DNA of 55,590 nt from assembly GCF_015207255.1 (NCBI RefSeq), contig NZ_JADEXG010000032.1, forward strand, positions 1 to 55,590, given 5' to 3'. Source of the DNA: Vasconcelosia minhoensis LEGE 07310 (GTDB lineage Bacteria > Cyanobacteriota > Cyanobacteriia > Phormidesmidales > Phormidesmidaceae). Below the pieces are notes generated by a model. The model was not told the origin of the DNA, did not search any database, and worked only from the letters and a program-made list of their open reading frames with translations. Positions 10,224 through 28,946 of the stretch are shown piece by piece (within the stretch, counting starts at the first letter, position 1; the number at the start of each line of letters is the position of its first letter). The position numbers were made by a program, and so were the translations under genes.

Positions 10224-10231
10224 TTTGCCGG

Positions 10232-10239
10232 TCCTCCTT
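10232..10239 (-). promoter_or_regulatory. Strong Shine-Dalgarno site of the 1060-residue gene
   Basis: On the minus strand the bases read AAGGAGGA, 8 bases before the ATG at 10223. This is an unusually complete ribosome site for this window and fixes the start of the 1060-residue gene. Confidence 0.75.
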
Positions 10240-10365
10240 CTCAGCCCAAGGCTGCTTCACCCGCCCTGATGACCAACCAGAGGAGTGGGATCAAATAACA
10301 GGTAAACCGATTATTCCCTAGTTGTCAAGTCCCATTCGTGAAGACTTATGAAGGAGGCATGTTTT

Positions 10366-13300
10366 TTAAAGTGAATTGAGGACATGCAATTTTGAGCGCC
10401 AGTCTTCGTCGTCGTAGCGGAAAGTCACTATACAGTAGCCCGCTGCATACTGGAGATTTTCCCGAGCAATCCGATCCTGGGCTTGCTGGTCGGGGTGGTC
10501 GTGGGCTGAGCCATCGCAGAAAACGGCGACTTTTGCGCTGCGATAAAGAAAGTCGGGTTTGACATTGGCATCGGGAATCAGCTCCTGAGCGGCGTCGGGT
10601 AGCTTCAGTCCCCGGCTGTATATCTCATCCAGGACTTCTCGTTCGAAGGCTGAGTTTGGGTCGGTTCGGGACCGGAGCTGCTGATACTGTTCTTCGCGAG
10701 ATGTACCCTGACTGTGGCGATGGATTGTGCTGGCGGTGAGCTGTTCTAAGTATCCTCGAATCGCATGGCGATCGAATAGCGGATGGTCAAACTGGTTGCG
10801 GTAGGAAAGAAGGCACTCATAGCAAGCCTTAGTGCAGCTCTCCTTCTCGTCAATAAAGTGGCAGATATCTAGCGCTTCTTTGGCTAACTTTTGGAACGCC
10901 GTAGGATTTTCTACAATCTGCGATAAAACGCCAGCACCGCCTTCCGAAGCTTCCCAGAAGAGAATATATTGCCCCTGACCCAGTCGTTCTGAGGCGAGTT
11001 CATTTTCCTCCAGCTTATAGACAGCCTGGATTGCCCGCTCCATAGCGGATTGGAAGCTGGCTAGAAATGACTCCGGCTGAGATATGGGAATATGGATCAG
11101 AAGCACATTGCAGACATCGTCAACCATCAGATGGACCTCGCGCTGCAAAGTATCCGAACTTTCTTCTCCGCGCGAGTCACCCCATACGCCGGTGGCGCTA
11201 TCAACTTTGAAGCCGCTTTCCTGACTGCTTCTCAAGCCTCGATTAATTCGCCAAATGCTGGCGGTATCTCCGTAGGTGAGCTCCAGCAGCTTTGTTCCAT
11301 CTTCGGCGGTGACCAATGCCTGTTCGCGCTTTTGCGGGTCAAAGCGGAAATGGGTGGTGACGTTATAGCCGTACTTCAGGCGCTCTTCTTCATCACAGGT
11401 GATGCGCTCACGCCGCTTGGTAAGCATCGTTTCCATGCTCAAAACGCGGCTGAGCTTTCCGAGGTTTCCGAAACTATCGGAGCCGATCTTGGCGCTACAG
11501 TTTTCGCAGAGGTCGCGCTGCCAGTCATCGCCGGGATGCAGATAGCCACACCGGGGGCAGAATGCACCCCGCTTGTAGCCGCTTTCGATGCCTTTGACGG
11601 GAATTCGGGTTTTCGAGATCTGGAACTTGCTGCCCTCATAATAGAGGATATTTTGAGGCGCGAATTCGCGAATGGCAACGACTCGGGGGCGAGAGATAAA
11701 CTCGCCATCGTTTCCGGCATGGATATAAGCACGTACCGGCAGTCGAGGAAAGTTGTAGCCGGGGAGAAAACCTTCAGAGGCAAAGTATCGGTAGGGATAA
11801 AATTCCAGCTGAGACTGATTTTTTCCCTGGTTCGTTTGACTAACCAAGAGATCAATCTGCCTTTTTGCTTCCCACTCCAGGGCTTCGGCGTTTTTACGCT
11901 CTTCCTGGGATACTAAACCCTTGGTCGCCCGATCGATGATCTGTCGCGAATTTTCGCGCTGGGTTACCGCGTCTTGATAGAGATTGCGCCAGCGATCGCA
12001 GGCTCGATCAAAGCGAGTTAAAGCATTTTCAATCGCCTGGCGGAGGAAATCTTCGGTATACCATAGGGCTCTTTGCAGGTCGGTCTGGCAAAAACTGTCT
12101 TCTAGAATCGCTTTGGCGGCCTGGAAGCAGCGCTCCAGCGCATCGATACCTAAAGTTAGCTGGTCTCGAATGCTCTGCTTGAGTGGAAAGCTATCCGTCT
12201 CTAGATCAAGAATCTGGTTCATCGAATGCTCCAGGTAAAGCCCGGTGTGGGCCAGCCAGAGCGAGTGAATATGCGACTTCACCAGGTCCTGATTGCCCAG
12301 TTCTAGCTTAGGAGGCACGACGACGCCAGCCACCATTTGCTCAGGTCGCTTGAAGAAATACTGATCGTGACCGCTGCCCACCGAAGCATAGGAGATCACA
12401 AGTGCTTCCTGGCCGCTGCGTCCGGCTCGACCACTGCGTTGGGCATAGTTGGCCGGGCTGGGCGGCACATTTCGCATATGGACGACGTTCAGGTCCGAAA
12501 TATCGATTCCCAGCTCCATGGTGGGTGAGCAGAACAGGGTTGAAAGTTCTCCATTTCTGAACCGAGATTCTCGCTGCTGGCGGGCCTCATTCTTGACCTG
12601 GCCCGTATGTTCCCGGCCCTCCATGTTTTGAACGCTCGACCCGCTTTGGGTGTAGAAATCTTGAAAAAACTGATTGACTGCTATTTGGGCATCCTCACTC
12701 CCCTGTAAGCGCTTGGAAGTCATCGGATCGGGGGAAATGTAGGTTGCTTTTTGAGCTGTCCATAGGAGCGCGTCGATTCGCAGCTGCACCTCCTGCCCTT
12801 CCTGGAGCAGGTAGCCCGCATCTGCCAGGGCGATCACCAGCGTTCGGATCAGGCTGGTATAGTCCGCCTCAGATATATTTTCAGACCGCCAGGGCCAGGC
12901 TCGGGGCGATCGCAGAAATCGGCCAATTTTACTCCGAGCCGTGAGCTTCATTCCGCCTTGCCCAGGCTCTGACGCCGTCGCAGTCGAGGCCCATCGGGCC
13001 TCATGCAGCTTTTCGTAGGGATCAAAGCTCCAGGGATCTTTGATCGCCTGTCTGACCTCGCGCTTGAGCTGTTCTAGCCGCTGGGGCTGGAGCAGTTCGG
13101 CATCGAGCACCAGGTCTTTACGCAGCTGGTCGAGCATAGCCCGGATCGCAGCCTCTCGCTGTGACGGCGATGCCTGAAGCAAAATTGGGTGGGGATGCTT
13201 TTGCCAGAACTCTTCTGCTCGACAGACTCCCTGAAGATCCTGATATTCAATCGCGAGCAGGCCACACTGTTCCAGGTTGGGCTGCACAATTCGCCAGCCC

Positions 13301-15711
13301 TTGCGGAGGTCTTCATAGAGCCGATACTCGATCAGATTGCGAAAAGCCTCCTCGTTCCGCCGCTTACCGGGGCCATAGTCGGCCACTTGCCTAGCATAGT
13401 CAGCCTGAGCTAGCCCCATCTGCTCAACGACGGCCTGGGCTAATTGGGTATGGGTGAGCTGCTGTTTTGCCTGCATCGCACCGTTTAAGGAAGCCCGCAG
13501 CAAACTCGTCTGGACAAAGTCGTTAAAATGGCCTGCCTGGAGTGAGGCATCCTGACGATTATCGGTGAAGCTGAGGATTTTTTGCGCCTGGGCCGGAACC
13601 GCCCCGCTGCTTTTCAGTCGGTTGACCGTTGAAAGGCACAGCAGCGTTGTCGCGGTACTTCTGCCTTCGCTACTCAGGCGCGACAGCTTAGTAAACTCAT
13701 TTTTGCGCTTGTCATGGACGACGCCGCAGCTCAGACAGGTGAGGAAGGGCTTGGGGGTAAACCAGTAGGCAGTCCCTTCCAGCATCGAGGAGGTAATCCG
13801 ACCGTTGGGCAAAACTCGCAGCTTTTGAGGAATGAACCTGGCGTAGTCCTTCTTAGGCACTCTGCCGTAGCGTTTGGTTTCGTTGAACCAGGTATCGGGT
13901 AGGCGGTCTTCTTCCTTCTCGTCCCAGAGTCCCGGCTCATCCAGGGTGATGTAGCCTTCCTGCACCTCGTCATTTTCCAGGGAGCTGAGGGCAGTTGGCA
14001 GCAGCGGCCTAACCTCCTGCCGATCGCGATCCCGATGCACCAGATAATAGTCCTGACCGCATTCCCGGCAGAACACCAGCGGATAGAGCAGGCGATCGCC
14101 GGTCGTGGAATATTGGCCCTCCAGGGTGAGCTCGCGCTGCTCAGGCGGCTCAGCCGTAGCATAGACGCTGCCGCCTTGGGAGACAAACTGGTGCAGGCGA
14201 AAGGCCAGCCCCTCCCGAGTTTTTTTGGTCTTACTGCCCCAGAGAAACATCTGCCGCAGAATCTCAAGACAGTGCAGCGAGTCAGCCTGCGTTTCGGCTG
14301 CTAGCTGAGCCGCTCCGTTCTGAAGGGAAATTGGGGTGCGACGCACCAAATGCGCCTCTTCTACTTTTTTTAGGCCAAAGGTCATCTCGATCCAGGCGGC
14401 CAGGGGATGGGCTTGAAAGGCTTCCAGGGTTTGCTGATCGGCTGGAGGGAGTCCTGCCGCGATCGCGCTTTTCAGCTCTGCCTGAGTCGGGTCTGGGCGC
14501 TGAATCGCACGTTCCAAGGTCTCATCGATCACGCTATCGACCTTGACCTCGGCCCCAAAGAGCTTGCTAGCAACCTCGGCCACGGTTTGATTACGGCTAG
14601 GCCGCGTGCCTTCGGTGGACATGGTGGCGCTGGTGCCGATGCAGAGCAGCGTTTGGCCACAGCGCTGCCGCAGCTTGCGGATCAGGAGCGCCACATCGGC
14701 TCCCTGGCGACCGCGATAGGTATGTAGCTCATCGAGAATCAGAAACTTCAGGTCGGGGGAAGCGACCAGCTTCTCTTCCTGATTGCGGCTGAGCATCAGC
14801 TCTAGCATCATGTAGTTAGTCAGGAGAATCTGCGGCGGATTGTTCTGGATCTCCGTTTTTTTCGCCAGGCTCTCCTGGCCGGTATATTGCTCAACTCGAA
14901 TCGGTGACCCGGGTACGTTGTTTAGATATTTGTCGAACTCTTCTTTCTGGGAATTAATCAGGGCGTTCATCGGATAGATCAAAATCGCCCGAACGCCTTT
15001 TACACCTGGATTTCGCAGCAGATCATCGAAAATCGGCACCACGTAGGTCATGCTTTTGCCCGACCCGGTTCCGGTGGTCAGGACATAGGGTTGCTGGCGA
15101 TGGGCCTGGCGAAATGCCTGCTCCTGATGCCGATGAAAGGTGTATTTGGAAATGTAGTCGGGGAAATAGCGATCGCACTCCCGATGCAAGATGCCTTCGT
15201 TAACCAGGCTCGGTAAATTAGCCCCGCGCTGAAATGACGGGTTGAGCTGCACTAACGGATCGGGCCAGAGTTCGCCCTTATCCAGCTCCTGATTGACGAA
15301 AGCTTCAACCCGGCGATCGCGAATCTTGAGAAAGCTTTGAATGTATTCCCGATAGTCCCCGATCACTGCATCCCGCAGATTGAAAATATCCAGGGTCGGC
15401 TGAGGCGCTTCAATCGGCTGCGGTTCTAGAATCGGTTCCGCAGGGGTGCGGCCCTGGCGCTGATCCATCCACTGCGCCAGCTGCGCCGCCAGTCCCTCGG
15501 TTAGGGTGTCTGTATTGATCACTTCAGCCAGGTCTATCGAATCCCAGGCGGGCGGAATCGCCGCGAAGAGTAGATTCAGCTGCGCTGGCTGAAGCTCTTC
15601 CACGCCCGTGCAGTCCAACCAGGCATCGCCCTGGGCGATCAGGATAGAAAACGGCCTGATCCGGTCTTCGCTTTGCTGGAGCAGCTCCTGGAGCTGAATC
15701 GGAACTTTCAT
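10366..15711 (-). CDS. DUF1998-type SF2 helicase with zinc clusters and C-terminal nuclease-like domain
   Basis: A 1781-residue helicase. Motif I is TGTGSGKS (about 212-219), motif II DELH (about 327), motif III SATM (about 360) and motif VI QRSGRAGR (about 1090). Cysteine pairs (CRECG, CLSCG, CPRCG with CENC) indicate zinc binding, and the four-Cys signature of MrfA/DUF1998 proteins (CTKACYECLLSYRNQ) lies near 1625-1640. The last 90 residues (FEREVLDEI, then KPDFLY, then AVFCDGSAHD) look like a Vsr/DUF559-type restriction-fold domain. Helicase plus DUF1998 in one chain resembles DruE of Druantia, or a fusion of DISARM DrmA and DrmB; the sequence alone does not decide. It starts 9 bases after the RelE::UvrD gene. 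Confidence 0.88.
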   Translation of the reverse strand: MKVPIQLQELLQQSEDRIRPFSILIAQGDAWLDCTGVEELQPAQLNLLFAAIPPAWDSIDLAEVINTDTLTEGLAAQLAQWMDQRQGRTPAEPILEPQPIEAPQPTLDIFNLRDAVIGDYREYIQSFLKIRDRRVEAFVNQELDKGELWPDPLVQLNPSFQRGANLPSLVNEGILHRECDRYFPDYISKYTFHRHQEQAFRQAHRQQPYVLTTGTGSGKSMTYVVPIFDDLLRNPGVKGVRAILIYPMNALINSQKEEFDKYLNNVPGSPIRVEQYTGQESLAKKTEIQNNPPQILLTNYMMLELMLSRNQEEKLVASPDLKFLILDELHTYRGRQGADVALLIRKLRQRCGQTLLCIGTSATMSTEGTRPSRNQTVAEVASKLFGAEVKVDSVIDETLERAIQRPDPTQAELKSAIAAGLPPADQQTLEAFQAHPLAAWIEMTFGLKKVEEAHLVRRTPISLQNGAAQLAAETQADSLHCLEILRQMFLWGSKTKKTREGLAFRLHQFVSQGGSVYATAEPPEQRELTLEGQYSTTGDRLLYPLVFCRECGQDYYLVHRDRDRQEVRPLLPTALSSLENDEVQEGYITLDEPGLWDEKEEDRLPDTWFNETKRYGRVPKKDYARFIPQKLRVLPNGRITSSMLEGTAYWFTPKPFLTCLSCGVVHDKRKNEFTKLSRLSSEGRSTATTLLCLSTVNRLKSSGAVPAQAQKILSFTDNRQDASLQAGHFNDFVQTSLLRASLNGAMQAKQQLTHTQLAQAVVEQMGLAQADYARQVADYGPGKRRNEEAFRNLIEYRLYEDLRKGWRIVQPNLEQCGLLAIEYQDLQGVCRAEEFWQKHPHPILLQASPSQREAAIRAMLDQLRKDLVLDAELLQPQRLEQLKREVRQAIKDPWSFDPYEKLHEARWASTATASEPGQGGMKLTARSKIGRFLRSPRAWPWRSENISEADYTSLIRTLVIALADAGYLLQEGQEVQLRIDALLWTAQKATYISPDPMTSKRLQGSEDAQIAVNQFFQDFYTQSGSSVQNMEGREHTGQVKNEARQQRESRFRNGELSTLFCSPTMELGIDISDLNVVHMRNVPPSPANYAQRSGRAGRSGQEALVISYASVGSGHDQYFFKRPEQMVAGVVVPPKLELGNQDLVKSHIHSLWLAHTGLYLEHSMNQILDLETDSFPLKQSIRDQLTLGIDALERCFQAAKAILEDSFCQTDLQRALWYTEDFLRQAIENALTRFDRACDRWRNLYQDAVTQRENSRQIIDRATKGLVSQEERKNAEALEWEAKRQIDLLVSQTNQGKNQSQLEFYPYRYFASEGFLPGYNFPRLPVRAYIHAGNDGEFISRPRVVAIREFAPQNILYYEGSKFQISKTRIPVKGIESGYKRGAFCPRCGYLHPGDDWQRDLCENCSAKIGSDSFGNLGKLSRVLSMETMLTKRRERITCDEEERLKYGYNVTTHFRFDPQKREQALVTAEDGTKLLELTYGDTASIWRINRGLRSSQESGFKVDSATGVWGDSRGEESSDTLQREVHLMVDDVCNVLLIHIPISQPESFLASFQSAMERAIQAVYKLEENELASERLGQGQYILFWEASEGGAGVLSQIVENPTAFQKLAKEALDICHFIDEKESCTKACYECLLSYRNQFDHPLFDRHAIRGYLEQLTASTIHRHSQGTSREEQYQQLRSRTDPNSAFEREVLDEIYSRGLKLPDAAQELIPDANVKPDFLYRSAKVAVFCDGSAHDHPDQQAQDRIARENLQYAAGYCIVTFRYDDEDWRSKLHVLNSL

Positions 15712-15720
15712 CGAGAATGA

Positions 15721-17829
15721 CTACCTCTGCCAGTCGGGGTCTGTAAGCGGGTCCAAAAACGATGAGGGATTTGAGCGTGAGCCGCAGACCAGCAGGGCTC
15801 GCATGGCTCGGGAGCAGCCCACATAGAACAGACGACGCTGCTCGTCTGAAACCGCCGCCAGCTCATCGTCGGGCAAGTCGGCACTAATGTAAGGCAGTAT
15901 GCCCTGGCGCAGCCCCACGATTGCCACGAAGGGAAATTCTAAGCCTTTGGCCGAGTGGAGGGTCAGCACCTTGATGTAGGTGCCCTGTAGATCAATATCG
16001 CGACCTGAGACAAACTGCGCCGCTGTGCCCTGGTCTACCAGGCGCTGCGCGATCGCGGTTCCCATATCTTTGCGCGGGCACAGCACCGCGCCGCCGTATA
16101 TCGGCAGGCGAAAGCGTTTGGCCGCCGCCTTAAAAAAGGCAAGGATCAGCCGACTTTCCTGCTCGACGCTATCGGTGAGGACGAGGGTCGGGGTAGCCCC
16201 CTGGTAGGCAGAGGGTTCCAGGCTGAGGCTGTCTGCGTCTCCGGCAGCGGTGTCTGCTAAAATCGTGCGGCAGGCCGCCATGATCTGCCGAGTATTGCGA
16301 TAGTTTCGCTTCAGCTGTAGCGTCCGCCCCGATACCTTCAGATCGGTGTGGATCTGCTTCCAGCTAAAGCCGCGCTGATAGAGAGACTGAGAGGCATCGG
16401 CGGTGAGGTAGAAGCCCTTGAGCGACGGCACCAGGGCCAGCAGAAATCGCAGGGCCACGGGCGATAGGTCCTGCGCTTCGTCAATCACGATGGCTTGGTA
16501 AGGGGGGTCTGGCAGCTGCTCTGCTACGGCCAGGGCCTGACAGCGAAGCTGCGGCCAGGTGGTCCAGCCGTCCCGCTGCATCAGCCGCCGCCAGGTCTGG
16601 TAGACGCTCCACAGCGCCGTTCGCACGGTCGCCTGGAGCGGGACGCCGCGCCCCCGCCGCTCCAGGGCCAGGTATTCGTCCAGCGTGGTTAGGCCCCAGC
16701 CGTCGATCACGTCCTGGATTTCCTGCATCAGGTAGGGCAGCCCCAGCCGCTCTAAGGTCTGGCGGCGGACCTGGAGATCAAAGGCATTTTTGGCTGGGAT
16801 AGCTGTGGTGTGGAGGGCTTCTCTGAGTAGCGCGAGCCGCTGAGCTTTGTCGGCAAACTGAGGCTCGCCGTGGGTTTGGACGTAGTAGCGACGGGCGAGG
16901 GCGTCAACGGTCGCCACTTTGACGCCTGCCCGGTCGAGGGGTTGGCCCAAGAGCTGACTCAGCAGCTGCTCGGAGTAGGTGACCAGAGCTTTGGTAAAGG
17001 TAGTAAATAGGACGGGCTTGAACCCCTGCGCTAGCAAATTCTGAACCCGGTAGAGGGCCAGGGTAGATTTGCCCGTGCCGGGGCCGCCCTTGACCAGAAT
17101 CGGGCCTTGCTTGCCAAAATCCCTGAGCTTTTCCTGCTCTGGGTCGAGCTTGAGGAGAAAATGGGTGAGGCTGCCTGCGACAAAGCGTTCGAGGTCTTCG
17201 GGCTGCTGGAGCACGTACTCGCGCTCTTCGATAATGTCTTCTATAGGTTTGGGATAGAGGTTGTCAACGATGCGCTGGATATACTGCTCGGGAACGGGCA
17301 GCTCCAGCAGGGCTTCGGAATGGGAGGTCGCCTGGATAGCTGACCAGTATTCGGGCGGAAGCTGCCACTGCCGAAGGACAGCATCAGTCAGCTCAAAAGG
17401 GAGTGAGGTTTGGATTAAAGAAGTCGCTTCGTCGGCCCCAGCGGCCTCAGCTGTGGCCGTTGGGGAAACGGTCGCAGGGTCTGACGGCACGACCTCGATG
17501 GCTTGGGGGTCTAAAACGCTGCTCTCGGGCGGTGGTGCTGGGTCATCAACTTCGGATAGCTCGATTTCGTAGGTGCGCTCGTCGCGCTTGCGCACGCTGA
17601 GCAGCTTTACCCAGCCCTGACCGAAGCTATAGAACAGGCGATAGTCGCCCATGCGGACGCGGTAAACGTTATTGCTATAGCCTCTCAGCTTTTTGGCATC
17701 GCCCTGGGCAGAAATCGGGTCGGCTTCAAGCACCTTCAGCGTTTTTTTGATTTTCTTTTGAACTGCTTTAGGAAGATTCAGCAGCTCGCTGTAAAAGGTT
17801 CCGGTGAAGGATAGCGCCCAGGGGGTCAT
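15721..17829 (-). CDS. RelE/ParE-like domain fused to a UvrD-family helicase
   Basis: A 702-residue fusion. Residues 1-90 match RelE/ParE toxin-fold proteins (helical start, then YRVRMGDYRLFY, VKLLSVRKRDERTYE). After a variable linker (90-200) comes a superfamily 1A helicase: motif I VKGGPGTGKST (about 248), motif II VIDEAQDLSP (about 446), motif V TLHSAKGLEF (about 618) and motif VI EQRRLFYVGCSRA. It is therefore a 3'-5' type DNA helicase with a toxin-like N-terminus that may bind or cleave RNA, or simply bind a partner. No cognate antitoxin is adjacent. It lies between the ParB-like gene (62 bases upstream) and the DUF1998 helicase (9 bases downstream), so all three probably share a transcript. 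Confidence 0.87.
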   Translation of the reverse strand: MTPWALSFTGTFYSELLNLPKAVQKKIKKTLKVLEADPISAQGDAKKLRGYSNNVYRVRMGDYRLFYSFGQGWVKLLSVRKRDERTYEIELSEVDDPAPPPESSVLDPQAIEVVPSDPATVSPTATAEAAGADEATSLIQTSLPFELTDAVLRQWQLPPEYWSAIQATSHSEALLELPVPEQYIQRIVDNLYPKPIEDIIEEREYVLQQPEDLERFVAGSLTHFLLKLDPEQEKLRDFGKQGPILVKGGPGTGKSTLALYRVQNLLAQGFKPVLFTTFTKALVTYSEQLLSQLLGQPLDRAGVKVATVDALARRYYVQTHGEPQFADKAQRLALLREALHTTAIPAKNAFDLQVRRQTLERLGLPYLMQEIQDVIDGWGLTTLDEYLALERRGRGVPLQATVRTALWSVYQTWRRLMQRDGWTTWPQLRCQALAVAEQLPDPPYQAIVIDEAQDLSPVALRFLLALVPSLKGFYLTADASQSLYQRGFSWKQIHTDLKVSGRTLQLKRNYRNTRQIMAACRTILADTAAGDADSLSLEPSAYQGATPTLVLTDSVEQESRLILAFFKAAAKRFRLPIYGGAVLCPRKDMGTAIAQRLVDQGTAAQFVSGRDIDLQGTYIKVLTLHSAKGLEFPFVAIVGLRQGILPYISADLPDDELAAVSDEQRRLFYVGCSRAMRALLVCGSRSNPSSFLDPLTDPDWQR

Positions 17830-17891
17830 AGCAATTTACGGTGGGTAGCGACGCAGGAGTTTTAAGGATATCAAGGCAATGCGTGAGAGGC

Positions 17892-18614
17892 TTAATACAT
17901 GCCTCCCCAAGCGTCTAAAATAGTCAGCATTCGCTTATCGCCTAAGCCTTTGACGCGGCTGACGACATCTGTAAATGAGGTAAAGGCAGACTGCTCGCGA
18001 GCCTGCTCGATGCCCTGGATCAGCTTTTCTGCATTTTTGCCGCGAATACCGATAGCCGCCAGCTTTTGCAGGAGGGCTGAGGTGCTGGAGGTATTGAAAA
18101 TCTCCAACGGCTCAACTTTCTGAGGAATTTGCTGCTGGAGCTGGGTGAGCTGCTGCTCCAATCGGCTGATGTCGCGCTGGTGGGCCTGCTTCATGTCTTG
18201 CAGGGCTCCATCCAGTCGAGATTCTAGATTGGTCAGGCGCTGCTCTGTGGTGGATGTCGCGGCTGGGGTCGCAGTTTCTGCTGAGGCTTCAGGCGGGCTC
18301 GTAGGCGGTGACTGATGCAGCGCGGCAAACTGGTCAATGGCAAGTTCTGCCATTTTGTCTGGGATGACAAAAGCGTTGACCATTTCCCCAGCGCGGGAGT
18401 TGATTTCTTTGGCTCTGACGGCGGCGTAATATTCGCGATCGCCCGCCAGCACTTCGTAGGACTCTATCCCGGTTTGCTTCAGCAGCAGGGGAGACAGCAG
18501 CCCGCCCGCTGCCAGAATGCTCTGGGCCAGGGTCTCCAGCTCGGCTTCTTTAAACTTTGAGCGCGGAGCCCCTGAGGTAATGCTCTTGACGTCTACCTGA
18601 TAATATTCGCTCAT
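17892..18614 (-). CDS. ParB-like protein with coiled coil and helix-hairpin-helix end
   Basis: A 240-residue protein. Residues 1-95 resemble the ParB N-terminal (ParB/Srx) fold, including LAGDREYYAAVRAKE in the place of the GxRR-type box. Residues 120-170 form a Gln/Glu-rich coiled coil (LESRLDGALQDMK, LEQQLTQLQQQ). The C-terminus carries a helix-hairpin-helix (VSRVKGLGDKR), a non-specific DNA-binding element. The standard ParB helix-turn-helix centre-binding domain is not seen. It starts 2 bases after the parA stop, so the two form one unit. It probably tethers the ParA ATPase, and perhaps the helicases downstream, to DNA. Confidence 0.82.
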   Translation of the reverse strand: MSEYYQVDVKSITSGAPRSKFKEAELETLAQSILAAGGLLSPLLLKQTGIESYEVLAGDREYYAAVRAKEINSRAGEMVNAFVIPDKMAELAIDQFAALHQSPPTSPPEASAETATPAATSTTEQRLTNLESRLDGALQDMKQAHQRDISRLEQQLTQLQQQIPQKVEPLEIFNTSSTSALLQKLAAIGIRGKNAEKLIQGIEQAREQSAFTSFTDVVSRVKGLGDKRMLTILDAWGGMY

Positions 18615-18616
18615 GG

Positions 18617-19474
18617 CTAGGCTCCAATTTTTTGCATGACTTCGAAGGAAAGGTTTCTGAACTCTTTGACCGAGTCACAGTTACGGTCAAACTCAAAGAT
18701 GGATTTTGGGTCGGGAACTTCTAAATTGCCCATGGTCAGAGTTTTATTGACGCAGTTGGACAGGGCCACCCGCTCGTAAATGACAGTATCAAGTACCGGA
18801 AACCCATAGCGTTGAATCACGGCTTCTTTTTGTTTAGGAAAAACAAAGTCCAGATATCTTGAATTGGTGAGCACCTTGGAGGGCAGCACCCCGAGCACTT
18901 TCAGAGGCTGTTTGCCAATGCTGGAGCGGGTTTCATTGGTTTCCTGAACAAAGTTTTTAACATTGCTCAATCCCTGATTGGCAAAAGGTTTCATATCAGA
19001 GGGGATGATCAGGTAATCGGCTGCAATCAGGGCAATTTCGGCGTAGAGATCTCGGGAGGGAGGCGCATCGACAATTACAACATCGTAGTCATCCTCTACT
19101 CGCTGAAGTTTGGTATTGAGGCGCAGGCGGCTAGCGGCAAAGCGGGTTAGCTGCTGCTGCACATCAATTAGCGTAATGTGGGAGGGGATAATGTCGATTT
19201 CTGGAGTATTGAATTCCTGTGATTTGCGGACTATTTCGGGGATGAAGTCAAATTCGCTGGAGCTGAGCAGCTGTACGACGTTCTTGCCTTTGATGTCATC
19301 TTCTTCCTCGAACTGAAATTTGATTAGCCCTGTGGCAAAGGTAGAGTTTGCCTGGGCGTCGATGTCGATGAGCAACACTCGCTTGCCCTTATTCTTGAAG
19401 GCGGCGGCGAGGTTGACGGCGGTGGTGGTTTTGCCGACGCCGCCTTTATTGTGGTAAATCGCGATCGTTTTCAT
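18617..19474 (-). CDS. parA: ParA-family ATPase
   Basis: A 285-residue ATPase of the ParA/MinD group. The deviant Walker A is KGGVGKTT (residues 10-17), Walker A' is LIDIDAQAN (about 35-43) and Walker B VVIVDAPPS (about 134). ParA proteins move plasmids or chromosomal loci on the nucleoid together with ParB. Length and lack of an N-terminal helix-turn-helix fit the small type Ib class. It pairs with the ParB-like gene 2 bases downstream. Location in the middle of a helicase island, rather than at a replication origin, suggests an integrated plasmid remnant or a dedicated partner of the defence genes. Confidence 0.92.
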   Translation of the reverse strand: MKTIAIYHNKGGVGKTTTAVNLAAAFKNKGKRVLLIDIDAQANSTFATGLIKFQFEEEDDIKGKNVVQLLSSSEFDFIPEIVRKSQEFNTPEIDIIPSHITLIDVQQQLTRFAASRLRLNTKLQRVEDDYDVVIVDAPPSRDLYAEIALIAADYLIIPSDMKPFANQGLSNVKNFVQETNETRSSIGKQPLKVLGVLPSKVLTNSRYLDFVFPKQKEAVIQRYGFPVLDTVIYERVALSNCVNKTLTMGNLEVPDPKSIFEFDRNCDSVKEFRNLSFEVMQKIGA

Positions 19475-19790: not shown

Positions 19791-20114
19791 TCATAACCAA
19801 ACTCCTTCCGCTTTGACGTTATGAAGAAAAGGGGTGTCGCTAGAGTCAAATTTATCAAAGGAGACAAAGTGGCGAGAAATAAGAACGTCATGTTCAAGAC
19901 TAATTTGAGCTATGAATTGACTTGTATTATCAATTTCTTGATATGGATTAATAGATCCTTTTAGAACTACTAGGATATCGATATCTGAAAATTCATGGCT
20001 TTCCTCTCTAGCCTGAGATCCATACAATATGAGCGCTTTTAACCGCTCTCGATAATAAGATGACAAATGGTCTTTGACTGCTTGAAGGATTGACTTAAGT
20101 TGAGGGTGCTGCAT
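19791..20114 (-). CDS. MNT-type nucleotidyltransferase
   Basis: A 107-residue minimal nucleotidyltransferase. The signature GSQAREES followed by SDIDILVV (about residues 33-50) gives the GS and DxD metal-binding residues. MNT proteins act as antitoxins of HEPN ribonucleases, AMPylating the toxin. No HEPN gene is adjacent; instead a 57-residue gene ends 9 bases upstream. The region is AT-richer than the helicase genes, consistent with separate acquisition. Confidence 0.87.
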   Translation of the reverse strand: MQHPQLKSILQAVKDHLSSYYRERLKALILYGSQAREESHEFSDIDILVVLKGSINPYQEIDNTSQFIAQISLEHDVLISRHFVSFDKFDSSDTPFLHNVKAEGVWL

Positions 20115-20354: not shown

Positions 20355-21161
20355 TTAAGCTTCGTCGTTGAGTTCTAAACACAGAAAATGTTTAACACCG
20401 TACTCTTCACAAAAATTAGGTATAGATTGCTCCATATTTTCAAGATTTGATGGAACTCTGACCTCAGAAACCCTGTCAGAAGAGGTAATTCTTAGAAAAC
20501 CATTTTCGATTGGTATTGGGAATCCTGCTTTGCAGGAAAGCACTGAAGTCAATACATCAAAAAGGTTTGCTTGCCTTGTGCTAAATGGCGGCTTCTTAAC
20601 TCTTCTTAACAAGTCTATTAGCTGGTCGTTATTCCACTTATCCGAGGTGCGGCAGAAGTGGTCGTACTTCAAAACTGGATTATGCCAAATGCAGGTAGAG
20701 CCCCAAATGTCAAAATGGCTATGTCTTACTCCTGGCTTGCACTCAAGAACAAATAATTCCCAAATTGCTGCTAAATGAATCCATCGAGCCTGACGACGTA
20801 GCTGGTCACTAAAATGAGAGATTTGGGAAGATGTCTGCATGCTGTCCCATTGGTAATATGATTGAGAACAAATGCGAGGATATTTTGCTTCAAATAAACA
20901 TAGCTTTGCCTTGGCAGCTTCCTTAAATAAAATTAATGCATCGCAACCGAAGGTGCTCTCTTGTAGTCTATTGAGCTTCTGTGAATGTAAATAACAACGA
21001 AGGTTGAAAGCCTTCCATGTCCTTCGTATTTCATTGGCCAAGGCAGATACATAGTCATCTTCGCCTGCTATAACTCCGTTATATAATTCATTTCGAGTAT
21101 CCTGATCGGCACGGTACGCAATAGCGGCTGCCAAAATTCGGATGGGACTCACTTTAGTCAT
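20355..21161 (-). CDS. Putative PD-(D/E)XK nuclease-like protein
   Basis: A 268-residue protein of no recognised family. FGCDALILF (Asp74) followed 16 residues later by CLFEAKYP (Glu91, Lys93) fits the D...ExK metal site of the PD-(D/E)XK nuclease fold, with NEIRR (Glu44) in the helix before. The downstream half has conserved-looking Trp/His/Cys residues but no motif I can name. The ATG at 21161 is preferred over an in-frame TTG at 21173 because it follows AGAAGAG. It is AT-rich against the flanking helicase genes. Its position in the island suggests a restriction or retained defence nuclease; function is inferred from the motif only. Confidence 0.7.
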   Translation of the reverse strand: MTKVSPIRILAAAIAYRADQDTRNELYNGVIAGEDDYVSALANEIRRTWKAFNLRCYLHSQKLNRLQESTFGCDALILFKEAAKAKLCLFEAKYPRICSQSYYQWDSMQTSSQISHFSDQLRRQARWIHLAAIWELFVLECKPGVRHSHFDIWGSTCIWHNPVLKYDHFCRTSDKWNNDQLIDLLRRVKKPPFSTRQANLFDVLTSVLSCKAGFPIPIENGFLRITSSDRVSEVRVPSNLENMEQSIPNFCEEYGVKHFLCLELNDEA

Positions 21162-21191
21162 TTCTCTTCTCAAAACTTGGTAGAGCCCGTA

Positions 21192-21487: not shown

Positions 21488-22063
21488 TTACCAAACGAGG
21501 GACATATCGAGGGTGAAGCCGGGTAGGATGGCTTCGCCGGATAGCTGGCTGGGATTATTTAACGTTTCTACCGGTTTGCCAGGGCGGTAAATTTGGACGG
21601 TGCGAGTTTTGCGCTCGATCAGCCATCCCAGCTGAACTCCGTTGTTGATATACTCTTGCATTTTGGTTTGGCTGGCTGGCAGGGTATCGGAGGGCGACAG
21701 CAGTTCCAGCACAAAGTCGGGGGCGATGGGGGGAAATCGTTCTCGCTGGGCCGGGGTGAGGGCCTGCCAGCGGCTTTGTTTAATCCAGGCGATATCGGGC
21801 GATCGCTGGGCTCCGTTGGGTAGCCTGAAGCCGGTGGAAGAATCGAAACAAATCCCCAACTGGGTTTGACGATTCCAGATCGCAAAATCTGCGCCGATTT
21901 CAAAATTGCGATTGCCCGTTTCGCCACCGGTGGGGGACATAATCACTAGGGTGCCGTTTGCATTGCGCTCGAATTTGACCTCGGGGTTGGCCTGACACAG
22001 CTGATAGAATTGCTCATCGGTGAGGTCAATGACGGGGTTGAGATCAAGGGTTGACAAAATCAT
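21488..22063 (-). CDS. Uma2-family putative endonuclease
   Basis: A 191-residue protein with the Uma2 (DUF820) plan: PD-(D/E)XK-type residues in RSPDIAW (Asp90) and DFVLELLSPSD (Glu120), then KMQEYINNGVQLGWLI. Uma2 genes are greatly expanded in cyanobacteria and usually stand alone; their target is unknown. It begins 35 bases before the end of the methylase gene region on the same strand and overlaps the possible longer form of the DUF2281-like gene. Confidence 0.9.
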   Translation of the reverse strand: MILSTLDLNPVIDLTDEQFYQLCQANPEVKFERNANGTLVIMSPTGGETGNRNFEIGADFAIWNRQTQLGICFDSSTGFRLPNGAQRSPDIAWIKQSRWQALTPAQRERFPPIAPDFVLELLSPSDTLPASQTKMQEYINNGVQLGWLIERKTRTVQIYRPGKPVETLNNPSQLSGEAILPGFTLDMSLVW

Positions 22064-22098: not shown

Positions 22099-25000
22099 CT
22101 AAAACCCTAGTTTATCCCAGGCGGCGAGGACGAGGCGCTGGGTGCGGTATTCGCCGAACTGCTTGAGTTCATTATTTTTCAGGACGCGGAAGGTTTCGCT
22201 GGGGAAGTCGGGGCCGTAGAGGTCGGCAGGGTCGAGGATATAGCGCAGCTCGTCGCGGCTGAGCCCGTAGAGGTGGGCGTAATAGGCGTCGAGGTCGGCC
22301 CGGAGGAGGGCGCGGCGCTCTGGGTTCCAGATGAAGGGCTCACCGTCGTAACCCATGTCTTGGGCGAAGGGTTGCAGGTCCCAGGCGGTGTAGGTGAGTT
22401 CGAGGACGCGGGGAGCGATGAAGTCGATGTCGGCACGGCTGTAGCTGTTTGGGGGGATAACAGGGAGTTGTTCAAAGATAAAAGTTGAAAGATGATTGCC
22501 GCTGACTTTTTGTCGCGCGCAGTAATCAAACACCAGAGAATTGATGCAGGCTAGGAAACATAATACAAGAGCGGTCTTTACACTTTCATCAAAGTATACA
22601 ATCTTGCAAGTTTCAGATGCAAAAACCCTGGGTATGAAAGCTGCGATTGCAGTTCTGAAGACTCCCGAGCTTGTGATATCTCTAAAAGCTAGAAGCCACC
22701 TTTTTTTTGTGTGATGAGAAATAAATTTCGAAAGAAAATCCGATTCAACCCAGTATCTTGGAATAGAAAATAAGTTTACCTGCTTATGCTGATCGTCGTC
22801 CAGCTCTGGAAGCTTACCTTGGTTTTCCTGAGCTTTAGATTGATTTTTATAAGTTCCGAATCGATGATCGAACTGGTGAATCATTTTAGCTTCGTATACA
22901 GGTAGAAATGTTTTTTCTTTACACACTAAAGAATTCATGCTAGAGCTATAGCCTCGGCTGGATAAATCCTTTTTTGTGATAAAAAGCTCGGAATCATCAG
23001 TTTGGTTGAGCATCCTATGAATTGAAATCTTCCAAGGATTTGAATCTTTGCTGTTATCTCTAATAACTGAAGTGTAGGCATATATTTTTTTTGTTAGGTC
23101 AGCGTCAACACGAGTTCTGAAGATAGGAGATGTTTTTGTATTCGGATTCACCAAGATAATTTCTGGAGAAAGCATCTCATACTGCCTCAATTTTTCGCTT
23201 ATATCTCCAGACTTACGACAGTAGAATGCAAAACTAACACCTTTGTTCTTCATAGCCGCTTTTCCTGAAATTGACATCAAAACAAATTTGAATGCATGAT
23301 GCACCTCGGGGAACATAAACTCTTCGTTTTCAAATCCCCAGAGCGACATTAGTCTTTCATCTTCTATTAAATGTGAAAAGAATTGCTTATTTCCATCATC
23401 TGTTGCTATTCCCAAGGGCACGATCAGGCCACTTGCTCCGCAAAGCGAAATTCCATTGAGGAAAAGTTCTGAGAATATTGAATATGTATTCAGCTTTCCG
23501 TTACCAGTTAGTGGAAATCGAAGGCTGAGCTTAATGAATTTATCAATTGACTCAACTTCTTTCCTATAATCTTCAAACTGTCTGTAAGTCTCAGGACTTT
23601 CTTGCCTTAAGCTCTCGATCATTTTCTTGCGTTTAGAGCCTGTAGCCTTTGAAACCTCCGGGACTTTAACTGCAAAAAAAGGCTTCTCCTCAACCTGGAT
23701 TTTTTCCCAAGGTGGATTCCCCAACATACAGTCAAACCCACCCTGCTCAAACACCTCCGGGAACTCCAGCGGCCAGTGAAAAAACCGCTTTTCCTCTGCC
23801 AGCCGATCTGCCGCATCTACTACCTGATCCAGCCGACTGTTGCCCTGGAGCAGATTTTTCACCAGCGCCGAAGTTGGCAACAGCTGTAGATTCTGCTCCG
23901 TCAGCGGCATAAAAAACGCCGCTGTCCACAGATTGCAGGCCGACCGGTCCCTCAACCACGACATCAGATGCCGACTGCGCTCATACTTCGCCTGCTTTAG
24001 CCGCACCGCCGCCGGGTCGTCATCCTTCATTCCCTCCACCTCGCGCCATGCCTTGGCATAGGTTTCGCGATCGCGCTCAAAGTTCTCAAACACCAGCTCA
24101 AACTGCCCCGCTGCCGAGCTTTCGCGCTCCTGCTTATTGCGCTTTTTGAACTGAGAGGCCAGCTTCTTGTCATCCCCCGTCACCGGCTTAAAGGCATTAT
24201 CCGGAATCCCTTCCTTTAGACAGTCCAGATCCAGCACCCCCACCAGCGAATTGCCGCACTTAATCCGATGGTCCAAAAAATTCAGCGACAGACCTCGGCA
24301 GAGCCCTTCTAGCCATAGCGCCACCTTACAGAGGTCCACTGCCAAAGGATTCAAATCGACGCCATAAATGCAGTGCTGGATGACATCGCGGATAGCCACT
24401 CGTAGGGGTTCCGGGCCGGGCTGGGCTTCTCCGGTGCGGACTTGGGCGAGTTCTTTGCCAATGCGGCGGGCGGCAGCGAGGAGAAAATGGCCAGAGCCGC
24501 AGGCGGGGTCGCAGATTTTTAGGGAGAGGAGGGCTTGGGATTGGGCTTGTTGGCGATTTAGATTCCGCAACCGCTCCTCAATCACCGGCTCCAGCGCACT
24601 CTTAATCAACTGCCCCACCAGCTCCGGCGGCGTGTAATAGGACCCTGTCGTTTTGCGATCGCTCCCCGTCACCAGCTGAAATTCCCAATTCCCCTGCCGC
24701 TGCACTACCTGAGGATGGAAGTCCAGCAGGCTTTCGTAGACGCTGCCCAGCTCCTCCACATCCAGCGCGCCGTAATTCACCCGCCGCCGCTGGCCCTTCT
24801 GCTCATAGAGCGACAGCTGCCGCAGCGCCAGGGTCAAATCGTGGTTATCGATCGCACAGCCGTCTAGCTCGGCTAGCGTGTGGGAGCCGAACAGATCGCC
24901 ATCCAGCGGCGTCAGGCCCAGCATCTGGCCGCGCCAGTTTTCGTCAAATAGCTGAAAAGTGACCCGCAGCCCCTGCCACAGGTCTTGAAAGCCTTCCCGC

Positions 25001-26112
25001 CGCCAGCTGGGTCGCTCTGCCAGGGTTCGCAGCCGCTCAATGCTGTAGTAGTCCTGATAGATTCTTGCCTGCTCCGGGTCATCGGCAGAGAGCAGCAGAC
25101 TGCGCGACTCCGCCACCATCAGGAACAGCAGCCGGTAGATCAGCATGAGCAGCAGCCGGTAGTAAGCAGTATCTGTTAATCCCTCACCCCCGACCCCTCT
25201 CCCAGAGAGCGAGGGGAGATTGGATTGGTTCCCCTTCTCCCCCGGGGAGAAGGAGCTAGGGGATGAGGGCCGGGAAGCAGTAAAAGAGGGGAATTTATCC
25301 CTCAAAGCCTGGTTGCTAGGATGCTGTAAGAATCCTGACCCCAGAGTCCTCAGCGCCGACTCCACGCCGTCTCGCAGGCGATCGCGCACCCGACCGCCCT
25401 GCTGTACCGACGCCTGGTGATAAACCTCTAGCAGGCAGTCGTCGGCATCCTCCATGCCCTGCGGCAGGCGAGAGCGATGGAACAGCCGATAAAACAGGCC
25501 AAACTCAGCAAAATTTTCCCCGTTGAGAATCTGCTCTAGGTCAAACTCCACATAGGTCAGCCGCGTCATCAACGTAGAGTCTCGCAGCAGCCGCCACCGT
25601 AGCCCATTCGTCACCACCGACCAGAGATGCTCAGTCCGGTTCAGATATTCCTGCACCAGCGCATGGGCCGACAGCCGAGGCGTGCCGCTGGGAGGCCGCT
25701 GCTCTAGCCGCAGGCGGCAGCCGATGATATGCACCGGGGGCCTATTTTCGCCCCGCTCGGCCCGGTGCGAAATGGCATAGGTCTGCCCCTCGACTACCTC
25801 TGCTTTAGCGGTGTAGACCGGCTTGTAACCCAGGCTCATCATCAGCGGCACCGCCCACTGCTCGCGAGTCGCAGAGGTCGCCGGGTCATCCTCCGGCAGT
25901 CGGGAAACGGCTCGTTGAAACGCTGACCAGTAGGCTTTGGCATCGCCCCAGGCGATCGCGATTTCATCCGCCAGCTTGTCACCCCGATCCAGGCCAAAGT
26001 CCTCCGGAGACTGGCCCCGAGCCTCGCCAGCCAAAATTTCCGCCGTCAGATCCGGCGCAATCAGATTGCCTTGAATATCCACCCCGACTGGCATATCGAC
26101 TGGATTCCTCAT
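22099..26112 (-). CDS. Eco57I-like N6-adenine DNA methyltransferase (DrmMI-like)
   Basis: A 1337-residue protein. Motif I is DPACGSGHF (about 533) and motif IV GNPPWEK (about 796), the signature of N6-adenine methylases. The long N-terminal region fits methylases that partner a helicase, such as DrmMI of class 1 DISARM. Its ATG overlaps the stop of the SNF2 helicase (ATGA). Two oddities: residues about 281-311 are encoded by a dispersed repeat; and the stretch from just after NPPW to about residue 1217 (about 22460-23700) is clearly AT-rich while both flanks are GC-rich, as expected if the target-recognition region had been exchanged. The C-terminal 100 residues return to GC-rich sequence. 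A BREX PglX role is unlikely without PglZ or BrxC nearby. Confidence 0.88.
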   Translation of the reverse strand: MRNPVDMPVGVDIQGNLIAPDLTAEILAGEARGQSPEDFGLDRGDKLADEIAIAWGDAKAYWSAFQRAVSRLPEDDPATSATREQWAVPLMMSLGYKPVYTAKAEVVEGQTYAISHRAERGENRPPVHIIGCRLRLEQRPPSGTPRLSAHALVQEYLNRTEHLWSVVTNGLRWRLLRDSTLMTRLTYVEFDLEQILNGENFAEFGLFYRLFHRSRLPQGMEDADDCLLEVYHQASVQQGGRVRDRLRDGVESALRTLGSGFLQHPSNQALRDKFPSFTASRPSSPSSFSPGEKGNQSNLPSLSGRGVGGEGLTDTAYYRLLLMLIYRLLFLMVAESRSLLLSADDPEQARIYQDYYSIERLRTLAERPSWRREGFQDLWQGLRVTFQLFDENWRGQMLGLTPLDGDLFGSHTLAELDGCAIDNHDLTLALRQLSLYEQKGQRRRVNYGALDVEELGSVYESLLDFHPQVVQRQGNWEFQLVTGSDRKTTGSYYTPPELVGQLIKSALEPVIEERLRNLNRQQAQSQALLSLKICDPACGSGHFLLAAARRIGKELAQVRTGEAQPGPEPLRVAIRDVIQHCIYGVDLNPLAVDLCKVALWLEGLCRGLSLNFLDHRIKCGNSLVGVLDLDCLKEGIPDNAFKPVTGDDKKLASQFKKRNKQERESSAAGQFELVFENFERDRETYAKAWREVEGMKDDDPAAVRLKQAKYERSRHLMSWLRDRSACNLWTAAFFMPLTEQNLQLLPTSALVKNLLQGNSRLDQVVDAADRLAEEKRFFHWPLEFPEVFEQGGFDCMLGNPPWEKIQVEEKPFFAVKVPEVSKATGSKRKKMIESLRQESPETYRQFEDYRKEVESIDKFIKLSLRFPLTGNGKLNTYSIFSELFLNGISLCGASGLIVPLGIATDDGNKQFFSHLIEDERLMSLWGFENEEFMFPEVHHAFKFVLMSISGKAAMKNKGVSFAFYCRKSGDISEKLRQYEMLSPEIILVNPNTKTSPIFRTRVDADLTKKIYAYTSVIRDNSKDSNPWKISIHRMLNQTDDSELFITKKDLSSRGYSSSMNSLVCKEKTFLPVYEAKMIHQFDHRFGTYKNQSKAQENQGKLPELDDDQHKQVNLFSIPRYWVESDFLSKFISHHTKKRWLLAFRDITSSGVFRTAIAAFIPRVFASETCKIVYFDESVKTALVLCFLACINSLVFDYCARQKVSGNHLSTFIFEQLPVIPPNSYSRADIDFIAPRVLELTYTAWDLQPFAQDMGYDGEPFIWNPERRALLRADLDAYYAHLYGLSRDELRYILDPADLYGPDFPSETFRVLKNNELKQFGEYRTQRLVLAAWDKLGF
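25181..25270. repeat. Dispersed repeat inserted in frame in the methylase gene
   Basis: About 90 bases starting CCCTCACCCC and ending GGGGATGAGGGC, with palindromic CTTCTCCCCCGGGGAGAAG. It is a diverged copy of the 19544-19632 repeat. Translated on the minus strand it gives SSPSSFSPGEKG...SLSGRGVGGEG, a low-complexity linker between two conserved parts of the methylase. Its length is a multiple of three and has no stop in the coding frame. Confidence 0.8.
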
Positions 26113-28946
26113 CCCGCTTCCCTCCGCTGGCCGGGCTGGAGCACGAACAGGCCCAGGACATCCATCGGCAGCTGGGGCTTCACCCGGATCTGGCCCTCCT
26201 TCGTGATGCTGCGGACGCGCCGATGGGACTGGGCGAGTGACTGGCTGCGCCCCTGGGCGATCGCGGCTAGCTCCGGCTCAAGCTGGCCCAGGCTGTTAAC
26301 CAAACTTTCCATTTCCATCCGCTTCAGGGCCGGGGCGATATCCCCTACCGGTTCCGCCTGCTGGAGCAGCCGCTGCGCCGCATTTTCCTCCAGCCATAGC
26401 GGATTTGAAGGGGGGCCGGTAAACCCAGCGACAAAGCATTCCTCAGCTAGCAGCGTCTCGACTCGGGGGCTGCTGAGCAGATAGCGCGATCGCAGCAGCA
26501 AAATCGTTGTGCGCTGCGCCACCGCATCGGTAATCGTAAAGCCACAGCGAGCCGCGATCGGGTCCTGCCGGTTTACCAATGTCTCCTCCAGCAGATAGCG
26601 GGCCAGGCCCTCCACCAGCGGATGATTGCGCCCCACATACTCAACCCCTTCGGACGCGGGAGTACTAAAGGTGATCATGCGCGGTTCCGTCCCTAATATA
26701 GGCTGTAGCGGCAGGGGAATCGACGGCAGCCGCCAGCCCTGCTTTTTCTGCTGTAGGGACGCATTCAATCGACCACAGGCGGCCTTCACAAAGCGCTCTA
26801 CGTCGGCTTCGCTACCCAAAATTTGTTCCGACTCTACCAGCTCCTGCTCCACCTCATGCGGCTTAATCGCCCGCTGGGCAAACCGGGTGCGGCTGACCTT
26901 TTCTCGCTCCACCGCCCGGTCCCAGCTTTTATGCACCTGATCGACAGCGGCTTCTTCTGCATCCAGCAGGTCTATCAGCGAAAGCTGCTCTGCATCGGCC
27001 TTACGGTCGAACAGCGACTTAAATACGGCCTCTGAAACGGTAGCGCTGTCCATCGGCACAGGTACCGTAATTCCCAGCGTCTTGTGGATTTCTACCGCCT
27101 TGCGAATCAAGACAGTCAGCACCGCGCCATCGACCGGGTTATCCTGCCCATAGAGCAGATAGCTTTTGACCACTGGCGCGGTCTGGCCGTAGCGGTCCAC
27201 CCGGCCTTCCCGCTGCTCCAGCCGGTTTGGATTCCAGGGCAGGTCGTAGTGAATCACCGCATTGAAAAACGCTTGGAGATTCACCCCTTCACTCAGGCAG
27301 TCCGTCGCCACCAGTATCCGCTGCGGATAGGTGGTCAGCTCCGCCAGGCGAACTTCGCGCTCATCCTCAGACAGCTCACCCGTAATCGCGATCGCGCGGA
27401 TTTTGCTGCCCCGTTTTTTCTCAAACTTATCCCGCAGCTGCTCTGCTACATAGTTGGCCGTAGCAATGTAGCGACACCAGATAATCGGATTGAAGCCATC
27501 ATCCAGCAGGGACTGGAGGGTTGCGATCGCGGCCTGAAGCTTAGCATCCTGAGCGCCTTTAATCTGGCTAGTCGCCTGAATAAACCCCCTGAGCTTACGG
27601 CGATCGGCATCTTTGTAGGTGCGCTGACCCTGCTCAACTGCGATCGTTGGCTGGGCATCGATCGCCTGCTCCTGGTCGGTCGGGTCGTAGGTGTAGGCGA
27701 TCATCAGGTCTTCATCAATCTCAGCCGTCGGGGCTATCTCCGTCTTCCTCACCTGCTTGGTCAGGGTTGCCACGGCAGCTTCCGGGGAAGACATCACACA
27801 GCGAATCAGGGCCAACGCCGCCCAGTAGCGTCCTCGCCGCTGGGCATAGCTCATCTCCTGGGTAGTGGTCTGCACCAGCCCCCGGGCAAAGTTATAGACC
27901 TGCTCAAACAGGGCACGGTATTCTGTAGACAGCTTGTACGGCTGCTCCAGGGGGTCGCGCTCAGGAAAAGGCGTCTCATTGCCCAGCCACTGCTTCACGT
28001 CAGCCCGGCGGCGCTGGACGAAATGGCTGGCCAGCTCAATCCGCTGCGCCTGGGTGAGGCTGTTGACATCCCAGGTCTCAAATTTGCGATTAAGCAGGCC
28101 CATAATCGACAGAAAGGACTCTTCAATCCCGCTGTGAGGCGTTGCGGTCAGCAGGACCAGATGCTGACTTTGTCGCTGAACGATTTCCTGAAGCAGCTGA
28201 TGCCGCTGCTGAGAAGCACTCTGCCCACCGGGGCGAGCGCAGGTATGGGCCTCATCCACGATCACTAAATCGGGGCAGTGGGTCAAAAAGCTGGCCCGAC
28301 GGCGATCCGATTTGGCATAGTCCAGGCTGACGATGATATGGCGATAGTAGTCAAAAACAGAGTGGTCTCCTCCTGGCAGCCCGCGCTCCAGCTTGCTAAC
28401 CGTTCCCGAGCGGATCACGACCGCATCGATATGAAATTTTTCCCGTAGCTCCCGCCGCCACTGGTCGCACAGATGCGGCGGGCAGAGCACGGCCAGGCGT
28501 TTAACCTCACCCCGATCGAGCATTTCTCGGGCAATCAGCCCAGCTTCTATGGTCTTCCCAATCCCGACATCATCCGCCACCAGCAGCCGAATCGTCTCCA
28601 GCCGCAGCGCCATCAGCAGCGGCACTACCTGATAGGGCCGGGGCCGCACCGATAATCGACCCAGCGAGCGAAAGGGACCCGCGCCACTCCGCAGGCTCAG
28701 CCGGGCCGCATCCATCAGCAGCTGGGCAGCGGTATGGTCTTGGACGGCCTCTGGATCAGGGGCTGGGAACTGAGCTGAGGTAATCGGCTCTAGCTCCAGC
28801 GGACGGTAGATGCCGCAAACCTGCTCTTCACTACCGCTGAGCGGCCTGAGCCGGACGACCTCAGGAATTTCTGAGGGCAGTACAATCCACTCGCGATCGC
28901 GGCAGGTCACCACAGACCCAGGTGTAGGAATAAACCGATCAGCCAT
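26109..28946 (-). CDS. SNF2-family helicase (DrmD-like)
   Basis: A 945-residue SF2 helicase of the SNF2/HepA group. Motif I ADDVGIGKT (about 123-131), motif II DEAH (about 230), motif III LTATPHSG, motif V ATDCLSEGVNLQ and motif VI EQREGRVDRYGQ (about 575-588) are all intact. The N-terminus (GSVVTCRDREWIV) is a small beta-rich domain. Followed directly (ATGA overlap) by a large adenine methylase, it matches the helicase-methylase pair drmD-drmMI that opens class 1 DISARM loci; similar pairs also occur alone. It is probably the first gene of the island transcript. Confidence 0.9.
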   Translation of the reverse strand: MADRFIPTPGSVVTCRDREWIVLPSEIPEVVRLRPLSGSEEQVCGIYRPLELEPITSAQFPAPDPEAVQDHTAAQLLMDAARLSLRSGAGPFRSLGRLSVRPRPYQVVPLLMALRLETIRLLVADDVGIGKTIEAGLIAREMLDRGEVKRLAVLCPPHLCDQWRRELREKFHIDAVVIRSGTVSKLERGLPGGDHSVFDYYRHIIVSLDYAKSDRRRASFLTHCPDLVIVDEAHTCARPGGQSASQQRHQLLQEIVQRQSQHLVLLTATPHSGIEESFLSIMGLLNRKFETWDVNSLTQAQRIELASHFVQRRRADVKQWLGNETPFPERDPLEQPYKLSTEYRALFEQVYNFARGLVQTTTQEMSYAQRRGRYWAALALIRCVMSSPEAAVATLTKQVRKTEIAPTAEIDEDLMIAYTYDPTDQEQAIDAQPTIAVEQGQRTYKDADRRKLRGFIQATSQIKGAQDAKLQAAIATLQSLLDDGFNPIIWCRYIATANYVAEQLRDKFEKKRGSKIRAIAITGELSEDEREVRLAELTTYPQRILVATDCLSEGVNLQAFFNAVIHYDLPWNPNRLEQREGRVDRYGQTAPVVKSYLLYGQDNPVDGAVLTVLIRKAVEIHKTLGITVPVPMDSATVSEAVFKSLFDRKADAEQLSLIDLLDAEEAAVDQVHKSWDRAVEREKVSRTRFAQRAIKPHEVEQELVESEQILGSEADVERFVKAACGRLNASLQQKKQGWRLPSIPLPLQPILGTEPRMITFSTPASEGVEYVGRNHPLVEGLARYLLEETLVNRQDPIAARCGFTITDAVAQRTTILLLRSRYLLSSPRVETLLAEECFVAGFTGPPSNPLWLEENAAQRLLQQAEPVGDIAPALKRMEMESLVNSLGQLEPELAAIAQGRSQSLAQSHRRVRSITKEGQIRVKPQLPMDVLGLFVLQPGQRREAG

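Follow-up and report, generated by a model that had tools for sequence, protein, structure and literature searches.

Gene organization of the locus

The window, the whole 55,590-nt stretch of DNA that was analysed, carries on its minus strand an intact reading frame of 1337 amino acids (22099..26112) encoding a DrmMI/type-IIG-like N6-adenine DNA methyltransferase, as identified by its open reading frame and by Pfam and PADLOC matches. Its best defence-family profile was PADLOC DrmMI (8e-80), with REase_MTase_IIG also matched (2e-54), and the Pfam Eco57I profile scored over the cut-off (5e-16). The features expected of a gamma-class N6-adenine methyltransferase (MTase) of the Eco57I/IIG type were found in their proper order: the SAM-binding motif I, DPACGSGHF (aa 535-543; 24484..24510, minus strand), largely invariant in a 51-row alignment, followed by the conserved NPPW form of the catalytic NPPW/Y motif IV (aa 799-802; 23707..23718, minus strand), and then by the recognition domain. 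Towards the C-terminus, the sequence and the family alignment revealed a conserved QLPVIPP (aa 1215-1221; 22450..22470, minus strand). Pfam detected methyltransferase domains only, and identified no nuclease domain in the N-terminal region. A copy of a palindromic repeat at 25178-25290 lies in frame within the methylase (aa about 277-312), and the repeat recurs at about 40 or more other genomic sites; these residues are absent from nearly all homologues, with three of 48 aligning most of them.

The methylase start is overlapped by the stop codon of a DpdE/DrmD-like SNF2 helicase gene (26109..28946, minus strand; PADLOC DpdE 8e-207, DrmD 1e-99), which has the same upstream position in nearly every close homologous locus that extends far enough. 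Directly downstream is a gene for a putative nuclease of the Uma2 family (21488..22063, minus strand; Pfam Uma2 9e-49). Farther downstream, in the same orientation, the third conserved member of the set encodes a 1781-aa DruE-like helicase with an MZB (DUF1998-type) domain (10366..15711, minus strand; PADLOC DruE 4e-98; Pfam DEAD, Helicase_C, and MZB). A DruE-like homologue was found near the methylase in 49 of the 99 loci examined, many of which end early or are distant, and the order helicase-methylase-DruE is shared by most cyanobacterial loci that are long enough, and also by Thermus, Allomeiothermus, and Natribaculum plasmids. Judged by gene order and profile matches, the methylase is a member of a conserved, defence-like helicase-methylase-helicase set, which may act against phages. 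The set is widespread in cyanobacteria, often on plasmids, and is apparently uncharacterised, no published report having been found in an incomplete literature search.

Several other features of the window were recorded. The DruE-like helicase is followed by two large proteins encoded on the same strand (within 3148-15711), which could be further parts of the defence set; one (7041-10223) has 1060 aa without any match, and the other (3148-7041) has 1297 aa with a weak Helicase_C match only. Genes for ParA, ParB-like, and UvrD-like (with a ParE-like N-terminus) proteins lie within the defence-like cluster at 15721-19474, and ParA/ParB also accompany the methylase in the homologous loci L056 and L162. 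The ParA/ParB-like genes raised the possibility of a plasmid contig, which was rejected because hisA-, ispE-, and glutamine-synthetase-like proteins (read by eye) are encoded on the far side. An AT-rich 272-aa open reading frame at 20355-21173 (fourfold GC 25%) has no profile matches; its segment 'GCDALILF...LCLFEAKYP' resembles a PD-(D/E)XK nuclease core, and it adjoins a Polbeta-type nucleotidyltransferase gene (19791-20114). At 53194-55302, four near-identical tandem open reading frames of 143-192 aa, starting MPIDFQTFVAIFATLLVFLTGVVLSYDTLEF, vary in the number of EEAQRRAEE-like repeats.

An AT-rich block within the methylase gene

The first-pass annotation had described an AT-rich segment at 22460-23700, directly after the NPPW motif, followed by a return to GC-rich sequence for the last 350 bases. 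A two-changepoint fit, run blind to these coordinates and compared with 60 shuffles, recovered the segment to within about 20 bases. On third-position GC, the fitted block spans aa 799-1218 (22459..23718, minus strand), with 34% GC inside and 71% outside (likelihood ratio 160; no shuffle exceeded 18), and leaves a GC-rich end of about 360 bases. The fit on fourfold-degenerate sites gave aa 799-1233 (25% versus 81%; likelihood ratio 166). The profile along the gene is thus a single low block, far beyond the shuffles, which starts exactly at NPPW and ends in QLPVIPP. Fourfold GC is 79% over aa 1-802, 25% over aa 803-1215, and 84% over aa 1216-1337, compared with 77% in the upstream flanking helicase gene. 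Since it is the fourfold GC that falls, amino-acid content does not explain the step.

The step itself is real; its use in the first-pass annotation as a signal of replacement did not hold up, because it is found in nearly the whole family, close to the family-wide step that the annotation had itself named as counter-evidence. Fourfold GC in the block is below that of the remainder of the gene (the body) in 45 of 48 sequences, AT-rich hosts included, with a mean drop of 22 points (p 2e-12). As a control, type I HsdS genes at 29 loci in related genomes were compared with their neighbours; mean fourfold GC was 40% versus 65%, and the HsdS value was lower at 28 of the 29. The AT bias, being general in this family and in HsdS genes, therefore does not mark the particular event in this gene, and a composition step alone proves little about replacement. 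In a specificity gene, such a step is a family-wide habit and is by itself no proof of recent transfer.

Two explanations may account for the bias: blocks may come from an AT-rich pool and be replaced before they can adapt, or an AT bias may be intrinsic to specificity segments. Under the latter, selection on expression or folding, or mutation, would keep the segments AT-rich, and composition would carry no donor signature and be silent on an exchange that is nonetheless real. The near-universal drop in the family and in HsdS genes fits this explanation, as do the drops in members from outside cyanobacteria, including the GC-rich Deinococcus (87 to 73, body to block) and Rhodococcus (86 to 66), as well as Kozakia and Thermus. 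However, the GC-rich members from outside cyanobacteria show a smaller drop or hardly any. Little or no drop is seen in some GC-rich lineages (Allomeiothermus, 86 to 85; Acidithiobacillus, 88 to 81; L011, 79 to 75), and fourfold GC rises in L014, L159.1, and L160.1. Moreover, among blocks that are 75-83% identical, composition is mostly similar even where body composition differs between hosts (L148, 55/26; L068, 36/25), as expected of imported DNA that has not yet adapted. An intrinsic bias is considered a reasonable possibility, although one held with less than even confidence. The stronger proposal, that the specificity segments of two unrelated cyanobacterial systems, this methylase and HsdS, form a shared, fast-moving AT-rich pool and are replaced faster than they adapt to host composition, is speculative and rather unlikely. 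If it were true, AT-richness would flag exchangeable specificity segments in GC-rich cyanobacteria, which could then be found from sequence alone. No paper stating that recognition domains are AT-rich was found in the literature search.

Structure of the block

The structure of aa 471-1337 was predicted from the 51-row alignment, which includes distant homologues (pLDDT 87, pTM 0.86); an earlier prediction from 27 close homologues was set aside (pLDDT 58.6). A search of the PDB by sequence gave a weak MmeI match only. By fold, the model matched BrxX/PglX (Z 27.3, rmsd 4.8, 526 aligned residues), CamA (Z 26.6), LlaGI (Z 22.9), DrdV (Z 21.8), and MmeI (Z 21.6), with matches extending over both the MTase and the recognition domains. 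The order of secondary-structure strands in the model suggests that the first ~165 residues of the block (aa about 804-965) form the part of the MTase fold that lies beyond motif IV, its second half, and are followed by the recognition domain, extending to about aa 1190. The expectation that the AT-rich segment is the target-recognition domain was therefore borne out in part: the segment would contain this domain together with half of the MTase fold, and the exchanged unit is accordingly predicted to be larger than the recognition domain. Its limits are probably set by where the DNA is conserved enough for recombination.

Divergence of the block and conflicting phylogenies

Identity was compared along the gene in 48 sequences, made up of 47 homologues plus the query. 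Against its nearest body relatives, the query shows 82-83% identity in the body and 34-38% in the block, with edges at aa 804-815 and 1190-1227; strong divergence in these relatives is thus confined to this segment, rather than spread evenly along the gene, which the first-pass annotation had named as its other counter-evidence. Body pairs that are 85-90% identical have a median block identity of 57% (range 33-88), and pairs at 90% or more have a median of 59% (range 37-100). L162 and L163, which come from one genus of the family to which the window belongs, have 97% identity in the body and 45% in the block; both are GC-rich apart from an AT-rich block. When all pairs are considered, most left edges fall at aa 803-815 (NPPW, the commonest left breakpoint) or at 880-900, with a few others, and right edges lie at aa 1190-1227, around QLPVIPP. 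Breakpoints at aa 803-806 recur in the Planktothrix pairs (see below), in L162/L163, and in the query compared with L044, L162, and L056.

The body and the block have conflicting histories. In the body tree, the query groups with L056, L044, L162, and L163 (Leptolyngbyaceae-type; SH-aLRT 99), whereas in the block tree it groups with L077 of Desmonostoc muscorum (support 100). L077 provides the only close block, at 58% identity, although its body is just 73% identical. AU tests on the body rejected the pairing of the query with L077 (p 1e-8), and those on the block rejected a clade of the query and its four body sisters (p 4e-5; with a site-mixture model and 22 rows, 2e-5). The pairing of L162 with L163 was not rejected for the block (p 0.38), though their blocks are only 45% identical. 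Together, the segment-only divergence and the tree conflict lend good support to the suggestion of the first-pass annotation that the segment was replaced by recombination and the rest of the gene kept. For the query, a replacement in its ancestry is well supported by the trees, from which, rather than from a recent strain pair of Vasconcelosia minhoensis, it is inferred. With the best block partner just 58% identical, the donor lies outside the sampled sequences. Viral contigs contained one relative (36% identical in the block), an alignment-based search of them returned none, and no phage donor was found; plasmid records held no block above 43% identity. A 737-aa homologue on a Calothrix brevissima plasmid (L075, 7988-10199) matches both ends of the query and apparently carries a large internal deletion.

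Block exchange among Planktothrix agardhii strains

Block swaps were observed at the strain level in P. agardhii. Outside the block, the four full-length genes of this species are mostly 91-100% identical at the nucleotide level, compared with 50-75% between different blocks and 98-99.6% in the neighbouring helicase. In each of the three tested full-length pairs with different blocks, the fitted edges were aa 804-1213. Strains No.2A and No.66 have identical blocks, and the blocks of NIES-204 and a truncated copy, No.365 p1, are 99-100% identical with upstream pieces at 91-97%. The marks of an exchange were thus all present: the flanks are conserved, the middle diverges, and one and the same middle recurs on more than one backbone. 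This recurrence, with its shared edges, rules out mere fast divergence in place. Between No.365 p4 and CYA126/8, identity falls stepwise within the block from 95.5% to 77% to 56%, indicating that smaller exchanges occur too. Truncated methylase copies on P. agardhii plasmids (L146, 7746-9551; L147, 7113-9269) still contain the exchangeable block in full and might act as donors. The near identity of these strains outside the block makes a change in specificity directly testable.

Proposed mechanism and alternative explanations

The methylase is proposed to be the MTase and sequence-reading subunit of the helicase-methylase-helicase set. A stretch of about 410 codons that begins directly after NPPW and ends near QLPVIPP would have been exchanged for the equivalent block of another allele, probably by homologous recombination that used the conserved flanks as anchors. 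The incoming block would bring the second half of the MTase and the whole recognition domain, and the SAM-binding half, the N-terminal region, and the C-terminal tail would be retained. A new target sequence was the most likely outcome of the swap, for the enzyme and hence for the whole defence set. Taken as a whole, this account of allelic block replacement by recombination, most likely with a new target sequence, is held to be highly probable.

Recognition domains are variable, and the block could instead have diverged rapidly in place under diversifying selection with no replacement, as the many pairs with similar bodies and only 33-60% block identity might suggest. Within one species, however, backbones that differ carry blocks that match exactly or almost exactly, and vice versa. 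Such combinations, together with the sharp shared edges and the rejection of tree congruence, refute this explanation for the family through the Planktothrix data and for the query through the conflict between body and block trees, and leave it very improbable. Intragenomic cassette shuffling, with phase variation from silent copies, is known for HsdS systems, and tandem methylase copies do occur in two relatives, L159 and L160 (G001:C2 and G005:C1546), where the AT-rich step is missing from copies L159.1 and L160.1. However, the genome of the window contains neither a second copy of the block DNA nor another full methylase of the same family, and shuffling appears still less probable. An assembly chimera might be suspected in a draft genome of 161 contigs, but the reading frame runs unbroken across the two edges, and independently sequenced relatives have an AT-rich block with the same edges; a chimera is the least credible of these explanations.

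Comparison with known systems

Twelve genes of the window were scanned with defence profiles, and among the genes scanned, judged by these matches, a complete DISARM or Druantia gene set is absent. As in DISARM, drmMI and drmD profile matches lie side by side, although the helicase scores higher as DpdE. Among the matches listed for the 12 genes there was no DrmB or DrmC (PLD) of class 1 DISARM, and DrmA appeared as a secondary helicase match only; the large partner matches DruE (4e-98) far better than DrmA (5e-12). DISARM has drmB (DUF1998), whereas here a DUF1998-type MZB domain lies inside the DruE-like protein. The DruE helicase is shared with Druantia, but no profile match to DruA-D, DruM/F/G, or DruH was found among the genes scanned, including those for the two large proteins at 7041-10223 and 3148-7041.

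The closest solved fold is PglX/BrxX of type I BREX, which likewise combines an MTase and a recognition domain in one chain, with about 14% identity to the methylase over the aligned fold. PglX sets the specificity of both methylation and defence, and can be re-engineered (PMC11341690), and variable recognition domains were given as the reason why pglX differs between E. coli HS and Salmonella (PMC9009780). The methylase has other partners than PglX: its neighbours are the DpdE/DrmD-like and DruE-like helicases, and the genes scanned included no core BREX set. Type IIG/IIL enzymes (MmeI, DrdV, and BpuSI) share the order of MTase and then recognition domain, as well as profile and fold matches. 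Type IIG restriction enzymes carry an N-terminal nuclease domain in the same chain; Pfam identified none in the N-terminal region of the methylase. In the type I, III, and IIG systems of Helicobacter pylori, recognition domains are replaced via recombination in conserved flanks (PMC3077401, PMC3983042), and the replacement within conserved flanks described here is similar. It differs in that the unit would include half of the MTase fold, since its left edge is the catalytic NPPW motif, and in that the exchange is between alleles, rather than a movement between positions in one gene. The exchange of recognition domains is an already known trick, found here in a less studied defence family: the module is exchanged in a methylase whose helicase-methylase-helicase set is apparently uncharacterised.
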